Shown one piece after another: positions 27,360 through 35,540 of a stretch of 38,625 bases of DNA. Within the stretch, counting starts at the first letter, position 1, and each line of letters starts with the position of its first letter. Origin of the DNA: Pseudomonadota bacterium. GTDB taxonomy: Bacteria; Pseudomonadota; Gammaproteobacteria; Competibacterales; Competibacteraceae. Location: the NCBI GenBank assembly GCA_018240295.1, contig JAFEGB010000327.1, positions 1 through 38,625 of the forward strand, in the 5' to 3' direction. The notes under the pieces were generated by a model. It saw only the letters and a list, made by a program, of their open reading frames with translations, did not search any database and was not told where the DNA came from. A program made the position numbers and the translations under genes.

Positions 27360-27554
27360 ATGTCACTCGAGATGAAACCCGCCTGCGAACGCTGCCGGCA
27401 GCCGCTGCCGCCGGACTCCCCCGACGCCCGCATCTGTTCGTACGAATGCACGTACTGCCGCGACTGCAGCGAGCACCGGCTGCACGGCCGCTGCCCGAAC
27501 TGCGGCGGCGAGCTGCTGGCGCGGCCGCGCCGGCTGCCTACAGCCGGCGGATGA
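27360..27554 (+). CDS. DUF1272 cysteine-rich small protein
   Basis: This 64-residue protein has many cysteines in zinc-ribbon-like spacing: CERC (9-12), C27, C31-x2-C34-x2-C37 and CPNC (46-49). The segment PPDSPDARICSYECTYC is the hallmark of DUF1272. Function is unknown; it is probably a small zinc-binding protein. GAGGA precedes the ATG. Its last 17 bases overlap the end of the convergent aminotransferase gene, so the two transcripts can pair. Confidence 0.85.
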   Translation: MSLEMKPACERCRQPLPPDSPDARICSYECTYCRDCSEHRLHGRCPNCGGELLARPRRLPTAGG

Positions 27555-28692
27555 TCGCCGCCGCCTGTTCGAGCGTCGCGTCGTCCTTGGCGAAGCAGAA
27601 GCGCAGCAGCCGCTGCGCCGGATCGGGCGCGACGCTGAACACCGATACCGGAATCGACGCGAGCCGCGCCTCGCGCGTCAGCCGCCGCGCCAGATCGACA
27701 TCCCGCTCGTCGCTGATCGCCGAATAGTCGAGCAGCTGGAAGTAGGTGCCGGCCGAGGGTGTGCAGCCGAAGCGCGAACCCTCGATCAGCCGGCAGAACA
27801 GATCGCGCTTGCGCTGGTAGAAGGCCGGCAGCTGCTGCCAGTGCTGCGCCTCGGCTTCCAGGTAATCGGCCAGCGCGTGCTGCATCGGCGTCGAGGTCGA
27901 GAAGGTCACGAACTGGTGGATCTTGCGGAACTCCGCCGACAGCGCCGCCGGTGCGATGCAGTAGCCGATCTTCCAGCCGGTGGCATGGAAGGTCTTGCCG
28001 AACGAGGACACGACGAAGGCCCGCGCCGCCAGCTCCGGATGAAGCAGCACGCTCTCGTGCCGGCGGCCGTCGAAGACGATGTGCTCGTAGACCTCGTCGG
28101 ACAGCAGCCATATCCCGCGCCCGCGCAGCAGCGTCGCGAGCTGCTGCATGTCCTCGGCCGACCAGACGCTGCCGGTCGGGTTGTGCGGCGTGTTGAGGAT
28201 GACGAGCCGCGTGCGCGGACTCAGCGCCCCGGCAAAGCGCTGCCAGTCCGGCCGGAAATCCGGCCCCGCCAGCGGCACGTGCACGGCCCGGCCGCCGGCG
28301 AGCTCGATGCCGGGCTCGTAGCTGTCGTAGCAGGGGTCGAACACGATCGCCTCGTCGCCGGCGCGCAGCACCGCCTGGATCGCGCAGAACAGCGCCTCGG
28401 TCGCGCCCGAGGTCACGGTGACCTCGTGCACCGGATCGGGCGCAACCCCGTAGGCCGCGAGCGTCTTCGCGGCGATCGCCTCGCGCAGGCGCGGCACGCC
28501 GGTCATCGGCGCGTACTGGTTGTGACCGGCCTGCAGGTGCTGCACGACCGCCTGCAGCAGGGCCGGCGGCACGGCGAAATCCGGAAAGCCCTGCGACAGG
28601 TTCAGGGCCCCGCACTCCTGTGCGAGCGCACTCATGACCGTGAAGATCGTCGTGCCGACGCGCGGCAGACGCGAAACGAGCGGCGCCGTCAT
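27538..28692 (-). CDS. Class I/II PLP aminotransferase (YbdL/methionine aminotransferase-like)
   Basis: This 384-residue fold-type I transaminase starts MTAPLVSRLPRVGTTIF. Family landmarks are LNLSQGFPDFAVPP, YAPMTGVPRLREAI, NTPHNPTGSVW, and the PLP lysine in SSFGKTFHATGWKIGYC. This set closely follows E. coli YbdL, which prefers methionine with 2-oxo acids, and the related kynurenine aminotransferases. GAGGAG lies about 9 bases before the ATG. A possible -10 (TACACT, 28754-28749) is seen without a good -35. It diverges from the prkA operon and overlaps the DUF1272 gene tail to tail. Confidence 0.92.
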   Translation of the reverse strand: MTAPLVSRLPRVGTTIFTVMSALAQECGALNLSQGFPDFAVPPALLQAVVQHLQAGHNQYAPMTGVPRLREAIAAKTLAAYGVAPDPVHEVTVTSGATEALFCAIQAVLRAGDEAIVFDPCYDSYEPGIELAGGRAVHVPLAGPDFRPDWQRFAGALSPRTRLVILNTPHNPTGSVWSAEDMQQLATLLRGRGIWLLSDEVYEHIVFDGRRHESVLLHPELAARAFVVSSFGKTFHATGWKIGYCIAPAALSAEFRKIHQFVTFSTSTPMQHALADYLEAEAQHWQQLPAFYQRKRDLFCRLIEGSRFGCTPSAGTYFQLLDYSAISDERDVDLARRLTREARLASIPVSVFSVAPDPAQRLLRFCFAKDDATLEQAAAIIRRL

Positions 28693-28864
28693 GACGCGGT
28701 CTCCTCGGGATTTCAGCTCGGGGTCGGAGGGAAGCATGCGGACCCGCCAGTGTACGGGATTCGCGCCTGTACGAGTCCGGCATTGTCGACAGGCATCGAT
28801 GCACCAGGAAGGACGGCGGCTGCAGCGCCTTGCGCCACTGCAACGCACATTCGGGACCGCTCGC

Positions 28865-28930
28865 GCACCATTGCGTAGCACTCTGCACCATGGCATGAAC
28901 CAGATTGATGCAGTACGCCATTGCATGGCG
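28865..28930. repeat. Repeated GCACCAT / GCCAT elements
   Basis: GCACCAT occurs at 28865-28871 and again exactly 20 bp later at 28885-28891 (two helical turns). It is followed by the inverted repeat CGCCAT-TGC-ATGGCG (28916-28930). They lie about 330-395 bases upstream of the sigma-54 start, a normal distance for activator sites, and share the GCACCA core of NtrC half-sites. The activator assignment is inference. Confidence 0.4.
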
Positions 28931-29232
28931 GCTCGATTGCGGCGATGCAGCAGAACGCGCCGGGCTTGCTACAGTCGTTCACGACTGCCCCCCGACGCCG
29001 GGCGGGAGCGGCGGCATACGCTCGGCAGCATGTCGTCGCCGGCAGCGACCATGCTGCGGACGGATGACAAAACGGCTACAAGCGCTCCGAACCGCCACCC
29101 GCCGTCACGGTCCTCCCTGAGGCAGGCCCGGGACCGGAGGCAGCAGATCCGGCGCCAGGCAGCGCCAGAACCCCACACCGTCGACGGCGACCTGCACCGG
29201 TCGGCGGTCCCCCCTGCAGGAATCCCCGAAAT

Positions 29233-29248
29233 TGGTCCGGCTATTGCT
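29233..29248 (+). promoter_or_regulatory. Sigma-54 (-24/-12) promoter of the prkA operon
   Basis: TGGTCCGG-CTA-TTGCT matches the RpoN consensus TGGCACG-N4-TTGCW at all but two positions. The GG (29234-29235) and GC (29246-29247) are spaced exactly 12 bases apart, start to start. Transcription would begin near 29259, about 40 bases before the prkA ATG. Confidence 0.75.
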
Positions 29249-29298
29249 AGTTTCGGGACAGATCATCGTGCATTCCGGCGCCAGAAGAGGGTTAGGCC

Positions 29299-31221
29299 AT
29301 GAGCATCTTCGAACGATACGCCACGCGATACGAGGAAAGCCGGGAAGAGGTGCTGAGCCTCCAGGAATACCTGGAACTCTGCCGCAGCGACCCCAGTGCC
29401 TACGCCTCCCCTGCCGAACGCCTGCTGATGGCGATCGGCGAGCCGGAACTGATCGATACGCGCCTCGACCCGCGCCTGTCGCGCATCTTCCAGAACAAGG
29501 TCATCAAGGTGTACCCGGCCTTCCGGGAGTTCTACGGCATGGAGGATTCGATCGACCAGATCGTCTCCTATCTGCGCCACTCCGCGCAGGGTCTGGAAGA
29601 ACGCAAGCAGATCCTCTATCTGCTCGGCCCGGTCGGTGGCGGCAAATCCTCGCTGGCCGAGAAACTCAAGCACCTGATGGAAAAGGTGCCGTTCTATGCC
29701 ATCCAGGGTTCGCCGGTCAACGAATCCCCGCTGAACCTGTTCGATCCGGATGAGGACGGCCGGATTCTCGAGGACGATTTCGGCATTCCACGCCGTTACC
29801 TGAAAGGCCTGATGAGCCCGTGGGCCGTCAAGCGCCTGAAGGAATTCAACGGCGACATCACCCGCTTCAAGGTCGTGCGCCTGCATCCGTCGATCCTGAA
29901 ACAGGTCGCGGTGGCCAAGACCGAACCCGGTGACGAGAACAACCAGGACATTTCCTCGCTGGTCGGCAAGGTCGACATCCGCAAGCTCGAACATTACGCG
30001 CAGAACGATCCGGATGCGTATGCATTCTCGGGCGGCCTGTGCCTCGCGAACCAGGGCCTGCTGGAATTCGTCGAGATGTTCAAGGCACCGATCAAGGTGC
30101 TGCACCCGCTGCTGACCGCCACGCAGGAAGGCAACTACAACGGTACGGAAGGCCTGTCGGCGATTCCGTTCGACGGCATCATCCTCGCACACTCGAACGA
30201 ATCCGAATGGATGGCGTTTCGCAACAACCGCAACAACGAGGCCTTCCTCGATCGCGTCTACATCGTCAAGGTCCCGTACTGCCTGCGCGTTTCCGATGAA
30301 GTGCACATCTACGAGAAACTGCTGATCAGTTCCTCGCTGTCCGAAGCCCCGTGCGCGCCCGGCACGCTGCAGATGCTGGCGCAGTTCTCGGTGCTGTCAC
30401 GCCTGAAGGAACCGGAAAACTCCAGCATCTTCTCGAAGATGCGCGTCTATGACGGCGAAAACCTCAAGGACACCGACCCGAAGGCCAAGTCGATCCAGGA
30501 ATACCGCGACTACGCCGGCGTCGACGAGGGCATGGCCGGCATCTCGACGCGCTTCGCGTTCAAGATCCTGTCGCAGGTGTTCAATTTCGACCACACCGAG
30601 GTTGCCGCCAATCCGGTACATCTGCTGTACGTGCTGGAGCGCCAGATCGAACGCGAGCAGTTCCCGGCCGAGGTCGAGGAGAAATACCTGTCCTACCTGA
30701 AGGGCTGGCTGGCGCCGCGCTATGCCGAGTTCATCGGCAAGGAACTGCAGCAGGCCTATCTGGAATCGTATTCGGAATACGGCCAGAACATCTTCGACCG
30801 TTACGTGACCTACGCGGACTTCTGGATTCAGGATCAGGAATACCGCGATCCGGATACCGGCGAATCCTTCGACCGCGCCTCGCTGAACAGCGAACTCGAA
30901 AAGATCGAGAAGCCGGCCGGCATCTCCAACCCGAAGGACTTCCGCAACGAGATCGTCAACTTCGTGCTGCGTGCCCGTGCCGCCAACAACGGCCGCAACC
31001 CGGTCTGGACCAGTTATGAAAAACTGCGCGCCGTGATCGAGAAGAAGATGTTCTCGAACACCGAGGACCTGCTGCCGGTCATCAGCTTCAACGCCAAGTC
31101 GTCCGCCGACGAGCAGAAGAAGCATGAGGACTTCGTCAACCGCATGACCCAGAAGGGCTACACCGCCAAGCAGGTGCGTCTGCTTTCCGAGTGGTACCTG
31201 CGCGTGCGAAAGTCGTCCTGA
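29299..31221 (+). CDS. prkA: Serine protein kinase PrkA (YeaG)
   Basis: This 640-residue protein has the PrkA AAA domain with Walker A GPVGGGKS (110-117) and a C-terminal PrkA kinase-like region. It begins [25 protein letters not shown], the family start, with AGAGG upstream. In E. coli YeaG is induced by nitrogen starvation and stationary phase and affects stress survival; the family has been described both as a kinase and as a AAA+ protease. More A/T-ending codons (gaa, gat, tat, aaa) appear here than in neighbouring genes, suggesting a different expression class or history. It heads the operon with yeaH and ycgB, behind a sigma-54 promoter. Confidence 0.97.
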
Positions 31222-31255
31222 CGCCTGTCGCCCCTGCCCCGCGAGGAATGCTTCC

Positions 31256-32524
31256 ATGTCCCATCTCGTCGATCGGCGGCTCAACGGCAAGAATCGCAGC
31301 GCCGTCAACCGGCAGCGCTTCCTGCGCCGCTTCAAGGATCAGCTCAAGCGCGCCGTGGCCGACGCCATGGCGGGTCGCTCGATCAAGGACGTGGACAGCG
31401 GCGAGAAGGTCAGCATCCCGACCCGCGACCTGTCGGAGCCGGTGTTCAGCCACGGCTCCGGCGGTCGCCGGGAGACGATCCACCCCGGCAACAAGGAGTT
31501 CTCGACCGGCGACCGCGTCAAGCGGCCGCAGGGCGGGGGCGGGGCCGGCGGTGGTGGCAAGCAGGCCAGCAAGGACGGCGAGGGCGAGGATGACTTCGTC
31601 TTCGAACTGTCGCGTGACGAGTTCCTCGACCTGTTCTTCGAGGATCTCGCGCTGCCGGAGCTGATCAAGACCCAGCTCGCGAAGATTCCGGAATGGAAGA
31701 ACATCCGCGCCGGCTACACGACCGCCGGCGTGCCGAGCAACATCAACGTCGTGCGCTCGCTCAAGGGTGCACTGGCGCGGCGCACCGCGATCGGCGCGCC
31801 GCACCGCACGCGGCTGCGCGAACTCGAACAGGAGCTCGAAGAAATCCTCGCCAGCGAGGGCGAGGGTTCGCCGGAGGCCGAACGCCTGCGCGAGGAAATC
31901 CGTCACCTGCGCTTCCGCATCGAAGCCATTCCGTTCATCGACACCTTTGACCTGCGTTACAACAACCGCATCCGCCAGCCGAAACCGACGACGCAGGCGG
32001 TGATGTTCTGCATCATGGACGTGTCCGGCTCGATGGATCAGGAACGCAAGGATCTGGCCAAGCGTTTCTTCACGCTGCTGTATCTGTTCCTGACCCGCAA
32101 TTACGAACGCATCGAGGTGGTGTTCATCCGCCACCATACGGTCGCCAAGGAAGTCGACGAGCAGGAGTTCTTCTATTCCCGTGAAACCGGCGGCACCGTG
32201 GTGTCCTCGGCGCTGTCGCTGATGGCGGACATCGTTTCGGAGCGTTATTCGCCGGGCGCGTGGAACATCTACGCGGCCCAGGCTTCGGACGGCGACAACT
32301 GGCAGGATGACTCGCCGCAGTGCCGGGAAATCCTCAGCGCGCGGATCATGCCGTTCGTGCAGTATTTTGCCTACGTCGAGATCACACCCGACCGGCATCA
32401 GAGCCTGTGGGAGGAGTACCAGAAGCTCCAGACCACCCACAAGCAGTTCGCGATGCAGGAAATCGGCGGAGCCGAAGACATCTATCCGGTATTCCGGGAA
32501 CTGTTCAAGAGGCGCATGGCATGA
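31256..32524 (+). CDS. yeaH: YeaH/DUF444 von Willebrand-like protein
   Basis: This 422-residue protein starts [20 protein letters not shown], the typical DUF444 opening. A Gly-rich linker (about 93-102) leads to a von Willebrand A-like domain with the metal site MDVSGSMDQ (D255, S257, S259). A coiled helix of Glu/Arg residues precedes it. VWA proteins paired with AAA ATPases often serve as adaptors for complex remodelling, and yeaH is always near prkA; a PrkA partner role is inference. GAGGA lies 8 bases before the ATG. Its stop overlaps the ycgB start (ATGA). Confidence 0.95.
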
Positions 32525-34026
32525 GTGGCAAACGGCTGATTTCCGAAGGCTCGGAGTGGACATTTCCACTGCTCGAAACCTATGACCGCGAAATCGCGCG
32601 CATCGCCAGCGAGCAGTTCCGGCTCGACACCTTCCGCAACCAGATCGAGGTGATCACCGCCGAGCAGATGATGGATGCCTATTCCTCGGTCGGCATGCCG
32701 ATCGGCTACCATCACTGGTCGTTCGGCAAGCAGTTCGTCGCCACCGAAAAGCATTACCGGCGCGGTCAGATGGGCCTGGCCTACGAGATCGTCATCAACT
32801 CCGATCCGTGCATTGCCTACCTGATGGAAGAGAACACGATGACCATGCAGGCGCTGGTCATCGCGCATGCCTGCTATGGTCACAACTCCTTCTTCAAGGG
32901 CAATTACCTGTTCCGGGCCTGGACCAGCGCCGATTCGATCATCGATTACCTGGTGTTCGCGCGCAATTACATCACCCGCTGCGAGGAACGCTACGGCATC
33001 GAGACGGTCGAGGAACTGCTCGATTCCTGCCACGCGCTGATGAACCACGGCGTCGACCGCTACAAGCGTCCGGCACCGCTGTCGATGGCCAAGGAACAGC
33101 AGCGCCAGCGCGAGCGCGAGGAATACCTGCAGCTGCAGGTCAACGACCTCTGGCGCACGGTGCCGGTGCGCGCCGGTGCGGCGGTGGTCGAGGAAAGCGC
33201 GCGCTTCCCCGAGGAACCGCAGGAGAACCTGCTGTATTTCATCGAGAAACACGCGCCGCTGCTCGAACCCTGGCAGCGCGAGATCGTGCGCATCGTGCGC
33301 AAGATCGGCCAGTATTTCTATCCGCAGCGCCAGACCCAGGTCATGAACGAGGGCTGGGCGACCTTCTGGCATTACACGCTGCTGAACCGGCTGTATGAAG
33401 AAGGCCGGGTCAGTGACGGCTTCATGATCGAATTCCTGCAGTCGCACACGAATGTCGTGTTCCAGCCGGAATTCGATTCGCCGTATTACAGCGGCATCAA
33501 TCCGTACGCGCTCGGCTTCGCGATGATGAGTGACCTGCGCCGCATCTGCGAAAACCCGACGCCCGAGGACCGGCGCTGGTTCCCGGAAATCGCCGGCGGC
33601 GACTGGCTGAAGGTGCTCGACTTCGCGATGCGCAACTTCAAGGACGAGAGCTTCATCGCCCAGTACCTGTCGCCGAAGCTGATCCGTGACTTCAAGCTGT
33701 TCGCGGTGCTCGACGACGACAAGGCCGACACGCTGGAGATCACCGCGATCCACGACGATGACGGCTACCGCAAGGTGCGCCAGTCGCTGTCGGACCAGTA
33801 CAACCTCGGCTCGCGCGAGCCGAACATCCAGGTCTGGAACGTCGACCGCCGCGGCGACCGTTCGCTGACGCTGCGCCACAGCGTCTACAACCGCCGGCCG
33901 CTGAACGCCGGGACCACGTACGAGGTGCTCAAGCACATGTTCCGGCTGTGGGGCTTCACGGTGCGGCTCGAAGCGGTCGACGAGAACGGCAAGGTCAGCC
34001 TCGTCAACGAGGTGCGCAAGCACTGA
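32521..34026 (+). CDS. ycgB: SpoVR family protein (YcgB)
   Basis: This 501-residue soluble protein belongs to the SpoVR/YcgB family, named for a Bacillus protein needed for spore cortex formation but common in non-sporulating bacteria. Recognisable blocks are [48 protein letters not shown] and [11 protein letters not shown]. The repeated His/Glu-containing motifs ([17 protein letters not shown]) look metal-binding. The start ATG at 32521 overlaps the yeaH stop. PrkA, YeaH and SpoVR form a conserved triad, and joint work in stationary-phase physiology is supported by synteny. A hairpin ends the operon. Confidence 0.96.
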
Positions 34027-34055
34027 GCCGGACGCACGCCCTCCCGCCCTGCCGC

Positions 34056-34082
34056 CGACGCCGCGCCGAGTGCGCGGCGTCG
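34056..34082 (+). terminator. Terminator of the prkA-yeaH-ycgB operon
   Basis: CGACGCCGCG (34056-34065) and CGCGGCGTCG (34073-34082) pair perfectly over 10 bp with a 7-base loop, 29 bases after the ycgB stop, followed by CCTTGTTG. The T-tail is weak and overlaps the mepA -35. Confidence 0.65.
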
Positions 34083-34087
34083 CCTTG

Positions 34088-34115
34088 TTGCACCGGCGCC
34101 GATCTTCCGTAGACT
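34088..34115 (+). promoter_or_regulatory. Sigma-70 type promoter for mepA
   Basis: TTGCAC (34088-34093) and TAGACT (34110-34115) are spaced by 16 bases, with the mepA ATG 34 bases further on. The layout is nearly the same as the gcvR promoter in this window. Confidence 0.55.
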
Positions 34116-34149
34116 CGCGCCCCGCCCCGCCGAGGACTGTCCGCCCCTC

Positions 34150-34992
34150 ATGCTGCGTCCGCTGCTGTCGTCCCTGTTGCTCGTCCCTGCCCTCGCCGCT
34201 GCCGGCCCCTGGGGCGAAGTCCGCCTGCCGAGTGCCGAGCTGCCGCAGGTCTACGGCGGTTATGCCGCCGGCTGCATCGCCGGCGCGCAGACGCTGCCGC
34301 TGTCCGGCCCCGGCTACCAGGCGATGCGCCCGTCGCGCAACCGCTACTACGGGCATCCGGAGCTGCTGCGCTTCATCGAACAGCTCGGCTACACGGCCGA
34401 GGCCCGCCGCTTCGCGCCGGTGCTGATCGGTGATCTCGGCCAGCCGCGCGGCGGGCCGATGCTCTCGGGTCACCGCAGCCACCAGATCGGCCTCGATGTC
34501 GATGTCTGGTTCCTCGATGCGCCCGGTGGCCGCGCTCCGTCCGGAGCAGCCCTCGAAAGCCTGAGCGCGCAGACGATGATCGACCCGTACGCCGGGCGCG
34601 TGCTCGCGCGCTTCGGCGCCCGCCAGCGCGCACTGCTGCGCGCGGCGGCCGACGATCCGGCGGTCGAGCGCATCTTCGTCAACCCGGTGATCAAGCAGAG
34701 CCTCTGCCGCAGCGAGGCCGATCGCGGCTGGCTGCACAAGATCCGGCCGTGGTGGGGACACGATGCGCACTTCCACGTGCGCCTGTACTGCCCGCCGGAC
34801 AGCCCGCAATGCTCGGCGCAGAAGCCGATCGAACCCGGTGACGGCTGCGATGCCGGGCTCGATGCCTGGGTCGAGGAAATCCGTCAGGCCGCGCGCCGCC
34901 CGCCGCTGCCGACGCCGCCGGCACCCGAACCGGTGCTGCCGGAGGCTTGCACGGCGGTGCTGCAGGCACCGTCGGCAAGCGCGAGGCGCTGA
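34150..34992 (+). CDS. mepA: Penicillin-insensitive murein endopeptidase MepA
   Basis: This 280-residue periplasmic LAS-type metalloprotease cuts D-Ala-meso-DAP cross-links in peptidoglycan. A signal peptide (1-18, cleavage after ALAAA) is followed by the zinc motif H108-x2-H111-x3-GLDVD (SGHRSHQIGLDVDVW) and the late WWGHDAHFHVRL motif. Several cysteines, as in E. coli MepA with its three disulfides, are kept. A Pro-rich C-terminal extension ends in an Ala/Ser tail. Its stop overlaps the start of a TPR lipoprotein gene (TGATG). Confidence 0.95.
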   Translation: MLRPLLSSLLLVPALAAAGPWGEVRLPSAELPQVYGGYAAGCIAGAQTLPLSGPGYQAMRPSRNRYYGHPELLRFIEQLGYTAEARRFAPVLIGDLGQPRGGPMLSGHRSHQIGLDVDVWFLDAPGGRAPSGAALESLSAQTMIDPYAGRVLARFGARQRALLRAAADDPAVERIFVNPVIKQSLCRSEADRGWLHKIRPWWGHDAHFHVRLYCPPDSPQCSAQKPIEPGDGCDAGLDAWVEEIRQAARRPPLPTPPAPEPVLPEACTAVLQAPSASARR

Positions 34993-35369
34993 TGCGAGGC
35001 CGGCTGAAGCTCGTGCTGCTCGCCGGCTTCGCCGCTGGCGGCTGCGCGTCGCTGCCGGCGGGTCTGACGCCGACCTCGGCCGAGCATGCATGCCGGGCCG
35101 TGCTGGACCCGCCCGCCGACGGCAGCGACCCGTGGTTCCGGCTCGGCAACGCGCTCGCCGAAGCCGGCGACTACGATGCCGCCGAACGCGCCTACCGCGA
35201 ATCCCTGCGCCGCCGGCCTGATCCGCGCACCCGGCACAACCTGGCCCTGGTGCAGTTGCAGCTCGGCCTCACCGGCCTGCAGGCCGCTGCCGCCGCGCTG
35301 CCGGCCGACGACCCGGCCCGGGTCGCCAGCCGCGCCTATCTGCACGAGCTGCGGCAGACCCTGCCCTGA
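34992..35369 (+). CDS. Small TPR lipoprotein
   Basis: This 125-residue protein starts MRGRLKLVLLAGFAAGGC, a lipoprotein signal ending at C18, though the box AAGGC lacks the usual leucine. A single clear tetratricopeptide unit (DPWFRLGNALAEAGDYDAAERAYRES, in part) with a partial second follows. The ATG overlaps the mepA stop by one base, so the start is chosen for coupling rather than the longer open frame. Such TPR lipoproteins often act as adaptors for peptidoglycan hydrolases (NlpI does so for E. coli endopeptidases). A similar job with MepA is inference. Confidence 0.8.
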   Translation: MRGRLKLVLLAGFAAGGCASLPAGLTPTSAEHACRAVLDPPADGSDPWFRLGNALAEAGDYDAAERAYRESLRRRPDPRTRHNLALVQLQLGLTGLQAAAAALPADDPARVASRAYLHELRQTLP

Positions 35370-35409
35370 TCCGGCCCCGGGCGCGCCCGGCGGCAATCGA
35401 GGATTTGCC

Positions 35410-35540
35410 TGACGCCCGTCAATGCACGGTCACGCATCAGCGGCATGCTGCCGCCGTGCGCTGCCCATGGCGCACCCACCACCAGAGCACGATGTCCCGG
35501 TTCAGGGACACGCCATAACAAGCGGTCGAGGATCGACCGC
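35410..35540. repeat. Cluster of small inverted repeats before the ArsC-like gene
   Basis: Four inverted repeats lie in 130 bases: TGACG-CC-CGTCA (35410-35421), GCGGCA-TGC-TGCCGC (35440-35454), TGTCCC-GGTTCA-GGGACA (35493-35510) and GCGGTCGA-GGA-TCGACCGC (35522-35540). The last ends 22 bases before the ATG. The first may be an operator or end the TPR gene; the last two could fold in the mRNA leader. Confidence 0.45.

Follow-up and report, generated by a model that had tools for sequence, protein, structure and literature searches.

The window analysed here is a stretch of 38,625 nucleotides from the 4.06 Mb genome (G000) of a member of the Competibacteraceae, the family to which Candidatus Competibacter and Contendobacter belong, and it carries three closely spaced genes on the forward strand. 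The first, prkA (yeaG; 29299-31221), encodes a 640-aa PrkA family serine protein kinase (PF08298, PF06798; NF011999, 1282 bits) and is followed by yeaH (31256-32524), encoding a 422-aa DUF444 protein (PF04285; NF003708, 717 bits), and by spoVR/ycgB (32521-34026), encoding a 501-aa SpoVR family protein (NF008737, 926 bits). The 34 nt between prkA and yeaH hold neither a stable fold nor a terminator, the start of spoVR overlaps the stop of yeaH as ATGA, and spoVR is followed on the same strand at 34057-34081 by a terminator-like hairpin with a 10-bp GC stem and then GCCTTGTT (fold -26.5 kcal/mol, z -2.05). This hairpin has a weak U-tract and was missed by an automatic terminator scan. Because of the short gap, the overlapping junction and the hairpin after spoVR, the arrangement fits expression as one putative transcript, and the three-gene operon proposed in an earlier sequence-only reading of this DNA is supported by the shared strand, the tight spacing and the lack of a terminator between the genes. 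On its other side prkA faces a 606-bp intergenic region (28693-29298), whose far end is bounded by a divergent methionine aminotransferase gene on the reverse strand (27538-28692; NF006569, 622 bits). An Rfam search of the prkA leader gave no match in the window or in three relatives.

The relatives and the outgroup loci whose sequence extends far enough have the same three-gene order. In E. coli, yeaG lies at 1.867 Mb and ycgB at 1.236 Mb, so ycgB does stand apart from yeaGH there, as had been remarked; this contrast does not make the window special, however, since prkA-yeaH-spoVR is the usual arrangement in beta- and gammaproteobacteria and E. coli is the exception. Beyond the terminator-like hairpin, on the same strand, a gene at 34150-34992 encodes the penicillin-insensitive murein endopeptidase MepA, and at locus L063 mepA is found about 2 kb beyond spoVR. 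Homologues of prkA/yeaG also occur in 16 phage-collection records (including MN688132, LR756502 and LR745206); 11 of these belong to Thermus phages, and two are uncultured, about 640 kb long and show 65-66% identity.

Upstream of prkA, at 29233-29248 on the forward strand, lies the -24/-12 (sigma-54, RpoN) promoter element TGGTCCGGCTATTGCT, identified by family conservation and by the best matrix score in the window. Its GG-N10-GC spacing, read directly from the sequence, is exact; it departs from TGGCACRNNNNTTGCW at positions 4 and 5 and has two mismatches to TGGCACGNNNNTTGCW, with a -24 part, TGGTCC, that differs from TGGCAC at two positions. The ATG of prkA at 29299 follows after 50 bases (29249-29298), and transcription is predicted to start near 29259. 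The element, its spacing, its two deviations and its distance to prkA are thus as first described. Consensus matching alone is nevertheless weak evidence for this site, and we dropped it as proof because such matches occur at chance level in both window and genome. Allowing up to three mismatches, we counted 41 matches in the window where shuffles predict 68, and a genome-wide pattern search with the reversed pattern as control returned 44 matches at up to one mismatch against 43. The genome scan for -24/-12 sites that had been proposed as a check, run in this way, does not distinguish the site. Within the window, a weighted matrix places 29233-29248 first among about 77,000 positions on both strands, with weights that were set by hand from the known consensus and are good for ranking only.

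Comparison across the family provides the decisive evidence. Searching the Competibacteraceae for prkA yielded 29 loci, the window locus among them, whose upstream DNA could be used, and a -24/-12 site is present in all of them, mostly as TGGTCCRTTAATTGCT and at 66 to 241 bases from the prkA start codon, whereas shuffled upstream regions at equal threshold gave a mean of 0.95 of 29. The site was also found in four of four held-out relatives, whose genomes were kept apart from the 29-locus analysis, so that it is present wherever the prkA 5' region of a family member could be read, in 33 of 33 cases. G020 has the one remaining prkA match, just a C-terminal fragment, and was left out of this count. 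Looking for sister families at the order level brought in one genome, which lacked prkA. The GG and TTGC are unchanged in all 29 aligned family sites, and mean column information is 1.59 bits within the site versus about 0.2 in the flanks. Between the window and its closest relatives the site is 69-81% identical and the flanks 17-34%, about random, and the DNA around the family sites is otherwise unalignable. Divergence in the window clade affects the four spacer bases and spares GG and TTGC, the pattern expected of sigma-54 recognition. Across 19 genomes the family form of the motif, TGGTCCRNNNATTGCT, has 15 occurrences, of which 12 are at prkA; the reversed control has three. On this comparative evidence, conservation puts the site at 29233-29248 clearly beyond chance. 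The gene upstream of prkA is the methionine aminotransferase gene in the window clade and encodes an AI-2E-type transporter, so labelled from sequence only, in two other members read; since the upstream gene differs between clades, the promoter elements go with prkA.

Several further sequence features were observed at these loci. In 22 relatives among the prkA leaders L005-L031, a GGAAGC...GCTTCC stem immediately precedes the ribosome-binding site, roughly 20-50 nt from the ATG. Some of its pairs are G-U and one shows a double change, which amounts to weak covariation (one pair changed on both sides); the stem is not evident in the window. At many of the loci L005-L026, TTCAG-N6-TTCAGG forms a direct repeat between the NtrC boxes and the -24 element, some 130-140 bp before the promoter; this repeat resembles an OmpR-type response-regulator site and is absent from the window. 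Away from prkA, the same genome holds a repeated palindrome array at G000:C330:1014-1156 (L179-L181), with three copies of TGCAC[CT]TGACCCGTGCA spaced 84 and 42 bp apart.

The DNA upstream of the family promoters holds candidate enhancers. NtrC-like palindromes, for example TGCACTAAAATAGTGCA, are found upstream in 10, 20 and 27 of the 29 loci at zero, up to one and up to two mismatches, where shuffles predict 0.01, 0.6 and 5.7, and in the relatives their usual distance from the promoter is 170-240 bp, pairs of boxes with an 18-bp separation being common. The closest relatives of the window have such boxes at different positions, L003 with a score of 23.0 and L004 as a perfect palindrome. The window itself has only degenerate boxes, with at least two mismatches and at 337-402 bp upstream. 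The better candidate, TGAACCAGATTGATGCA (28896-28912, forward strand), stands 337 bp upstream of the -24 element and ranks second in the window by a matrix derived solely from relatives; when the intergenic region was shuffled 1000 times, its score was reached in 4. A weaker candidate second enhancer, TGCGCCACTGCAACGCA (28831-28847, forward strand), ranks fifth, and both scores were jointly reached in 1 of 1000 intergenic shuffles. Assignment of the boxes to the divergent gene was considered and rejected as the main reading, since the upstream gene changes between clades while the elements stay with prkA. An IHF-type bend site between enhancer and promoter is frequent at NtrC-controlled promoters and is not required. 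A perfect IHF-like site is present in 9 of the 29 family loci, against 0.2 expected, between the NtrC box and the promoter and mostly about 100-105 bp upstream; in the window none is recognisable, the best candidate having four mismatches. Given these degenerate boxes and the lack of a recognisable IHF site, NtrC control in the window is drawn mainly from the relatives, and NtrC is a likely activator in this species, less certainly so than in them. For the window, the nitrogen control through RpoN and NtrC put forward in the sequence-only reading therefore rests mainly on the relatives and their near-perfect boxes.

The host genome encodes the regulators that such control would use. It has one rpoN (PF04552 match, 235 bits) and an NtrC (the L145 protein) that scores 752 bits against the TIGR01818 equivalog, above the cut-off of 558.6, and it contains about 19 strong sigma-54 activator domains. 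The host glnA promoter (L169) offers an internal comparison, with box TGCACTGTTATCGTGCA placed 80 bp before TGGCATGTATCGTGCT. As at prkA, a box of the NtrC type precedes a -24/-12 element; unlike at prkA, the glnA box is intact and close, at 80 bp, to a -24 element that shows one departure (TGGCAT) where that of prkA shows two. Family-wide conservation, the presence of RpoN and NtrC, and the NtrC boxes upstream in relatives together lend support to the original interpretation as a sigma-54 promoter.

We consider it probable that a functional sigma-54 promoter drives a prkA-yeaH-spoVR transcript and is opened by NtrC-phosphate in nitrogen shortage; transcription itself, activation by NtrC in this organism and the nitrogen signal are all inferred. 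RpoN holoenzyme would wait at 29233-29248 in a closed, inactive complex until nitrogen ran short. NtrC-phosphate would then occupy the upstream boxes, which are near-perfect in relatives and degenerate in the window, reach the promoter by DNA looping, with IHF helping in many relatives, and open the closed complex so that transcription starts near 29259. The prkA, yeaH and spoVR products would then be made together as a starvation-response module. That the -24/-12 resemblance is instead an accident might be argued from how common equally good consensus matches are at chance level in window and genome, but with the site in every readable family member, GG and TTGC invariant and the flanks unalignable, we regard this as extremely improbable.

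Two further alternatives accept the sigma-54 promoter and differ in how the operon would be controlled. Most expression could come from a second promoter of the sigma-70/sigma-S type, as in Salmonella, where yeaG has a sigma-54-independent promoter alongside its mapped sigma-54 site, loss of rpoN leaves the activity of yeaG promoter fusions unchanged, and there is a known sigma-S promoter (PMC3844500). A scan of 28000-35500 for sigma-70-like promoters passed none, although such a scan is crude in GC-rich DNA, and we judge a dominant second promoter unlikely. Somewhat less probable again is that an enhancer-binding protein other than NtrC acts here and that the NtrC boxes have decayed. The many activator domains in the genome would supply candidates, the window boxes are indeed degenerate, and R. 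etli prkA needs RpoN1, not NtrC, for activation (PMC3188799). Against this, the closest relatives L003 and L004 retain their boxes and the best window box outscores all but a few shuffled versions of the region. E. coli yeaG likewise has no canonical NtrC box by the family matrix and is still bound by NtrC in vivo (PMC4066584), so a poor box does not exclude control. Returning to NtrC-dependent control from the sigma-54 site, the fixed non-consensus TGGTCC is its only unusual feature. It is nearly unique per genome. As a tentative suggestion that we hold to be rather doubtful, it might give this one starvation operon a sigma-54 promoter that is weak or specialised; in the window clade the enhancer boxes would have shifted and degenerated, with the core unchanged.

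These results add a new family, on strong comparative grounds, to those in which this type of control is known. RpoN-dependent prkA in a three-gene operon has already been published for R. etli (PMC3188799), as has NtrC-dependent expression of the trio for B. cenocepacia (PMC5491218). We found no paper on sigma-54 in Competibacter or Contendobacter in the literature searched. The function of the PrkA-YeaH-SpoVR module is poorly understood, and the family-wide layout of NtrC, IHF and sigma-54 sites at prkA predicts that it serves as a nitrogen-starvation output, which agrees with published data from alpha-, beta- and gammaproteobacteria.

Of 75 prkA loci from beta- and gammaproteobacteria outside the family, 9 reach a score of 12 or more where 0.7 would be expected, which indicates that RpoN control of prkA is patchy and not universal; most outgroup prkA genes lack a site of the Competibacteraceae type, as do most of the Burkholderiales loci examined. 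The yeaGH operon of E. coli and Salmonella shares with the window a sigma-54 site upstream of yeaG, and NtrC is bound there in nitrogen starvation, as at the yeaGH promoter of N-starved E. coli (PMC4066584, PMC4664914, PMC3844500); our analysis also recovered the E. coli site, TGGCATGAGAGTTGCT. The -24 element there is TGGCAT, in contrast to TGGTCC in the window, and the operon has two genes, with ycgB elsewhere. Links to nitrogen metabolism are further seen in diazotrophic Azoarcus, where prkA and yeaH are raised (PMC8467165), and in P. stutzeri, whose list of nitrogen-fixation-inducible genes includes prkA (PMC2820453). The operon prkA-CH02816-CH02815 of Rhizobium etli has the same three genes in the same order as the window, forms one transcript by RT-PCR and is strongly RpoN1-dependent at prkA; R. 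etli differs in being an alphaproteobacterium in which NtrC is not a positive activator of prkA, and the comparison drawn here covers genes and expression (PMC3188799). In Burkholderia cenocepacia, expression of the adjacent genes BCAL1663-1664-1665, given as prkA, a hypothetical protein and a SpoVR-like protein, is reduced in an ntrC mutant (-4.0, -3.4 and -3.0), a case in which expression shows all three genes to be NtrC-dependent and the passage concerned defines no promoter site (PMC5491218).
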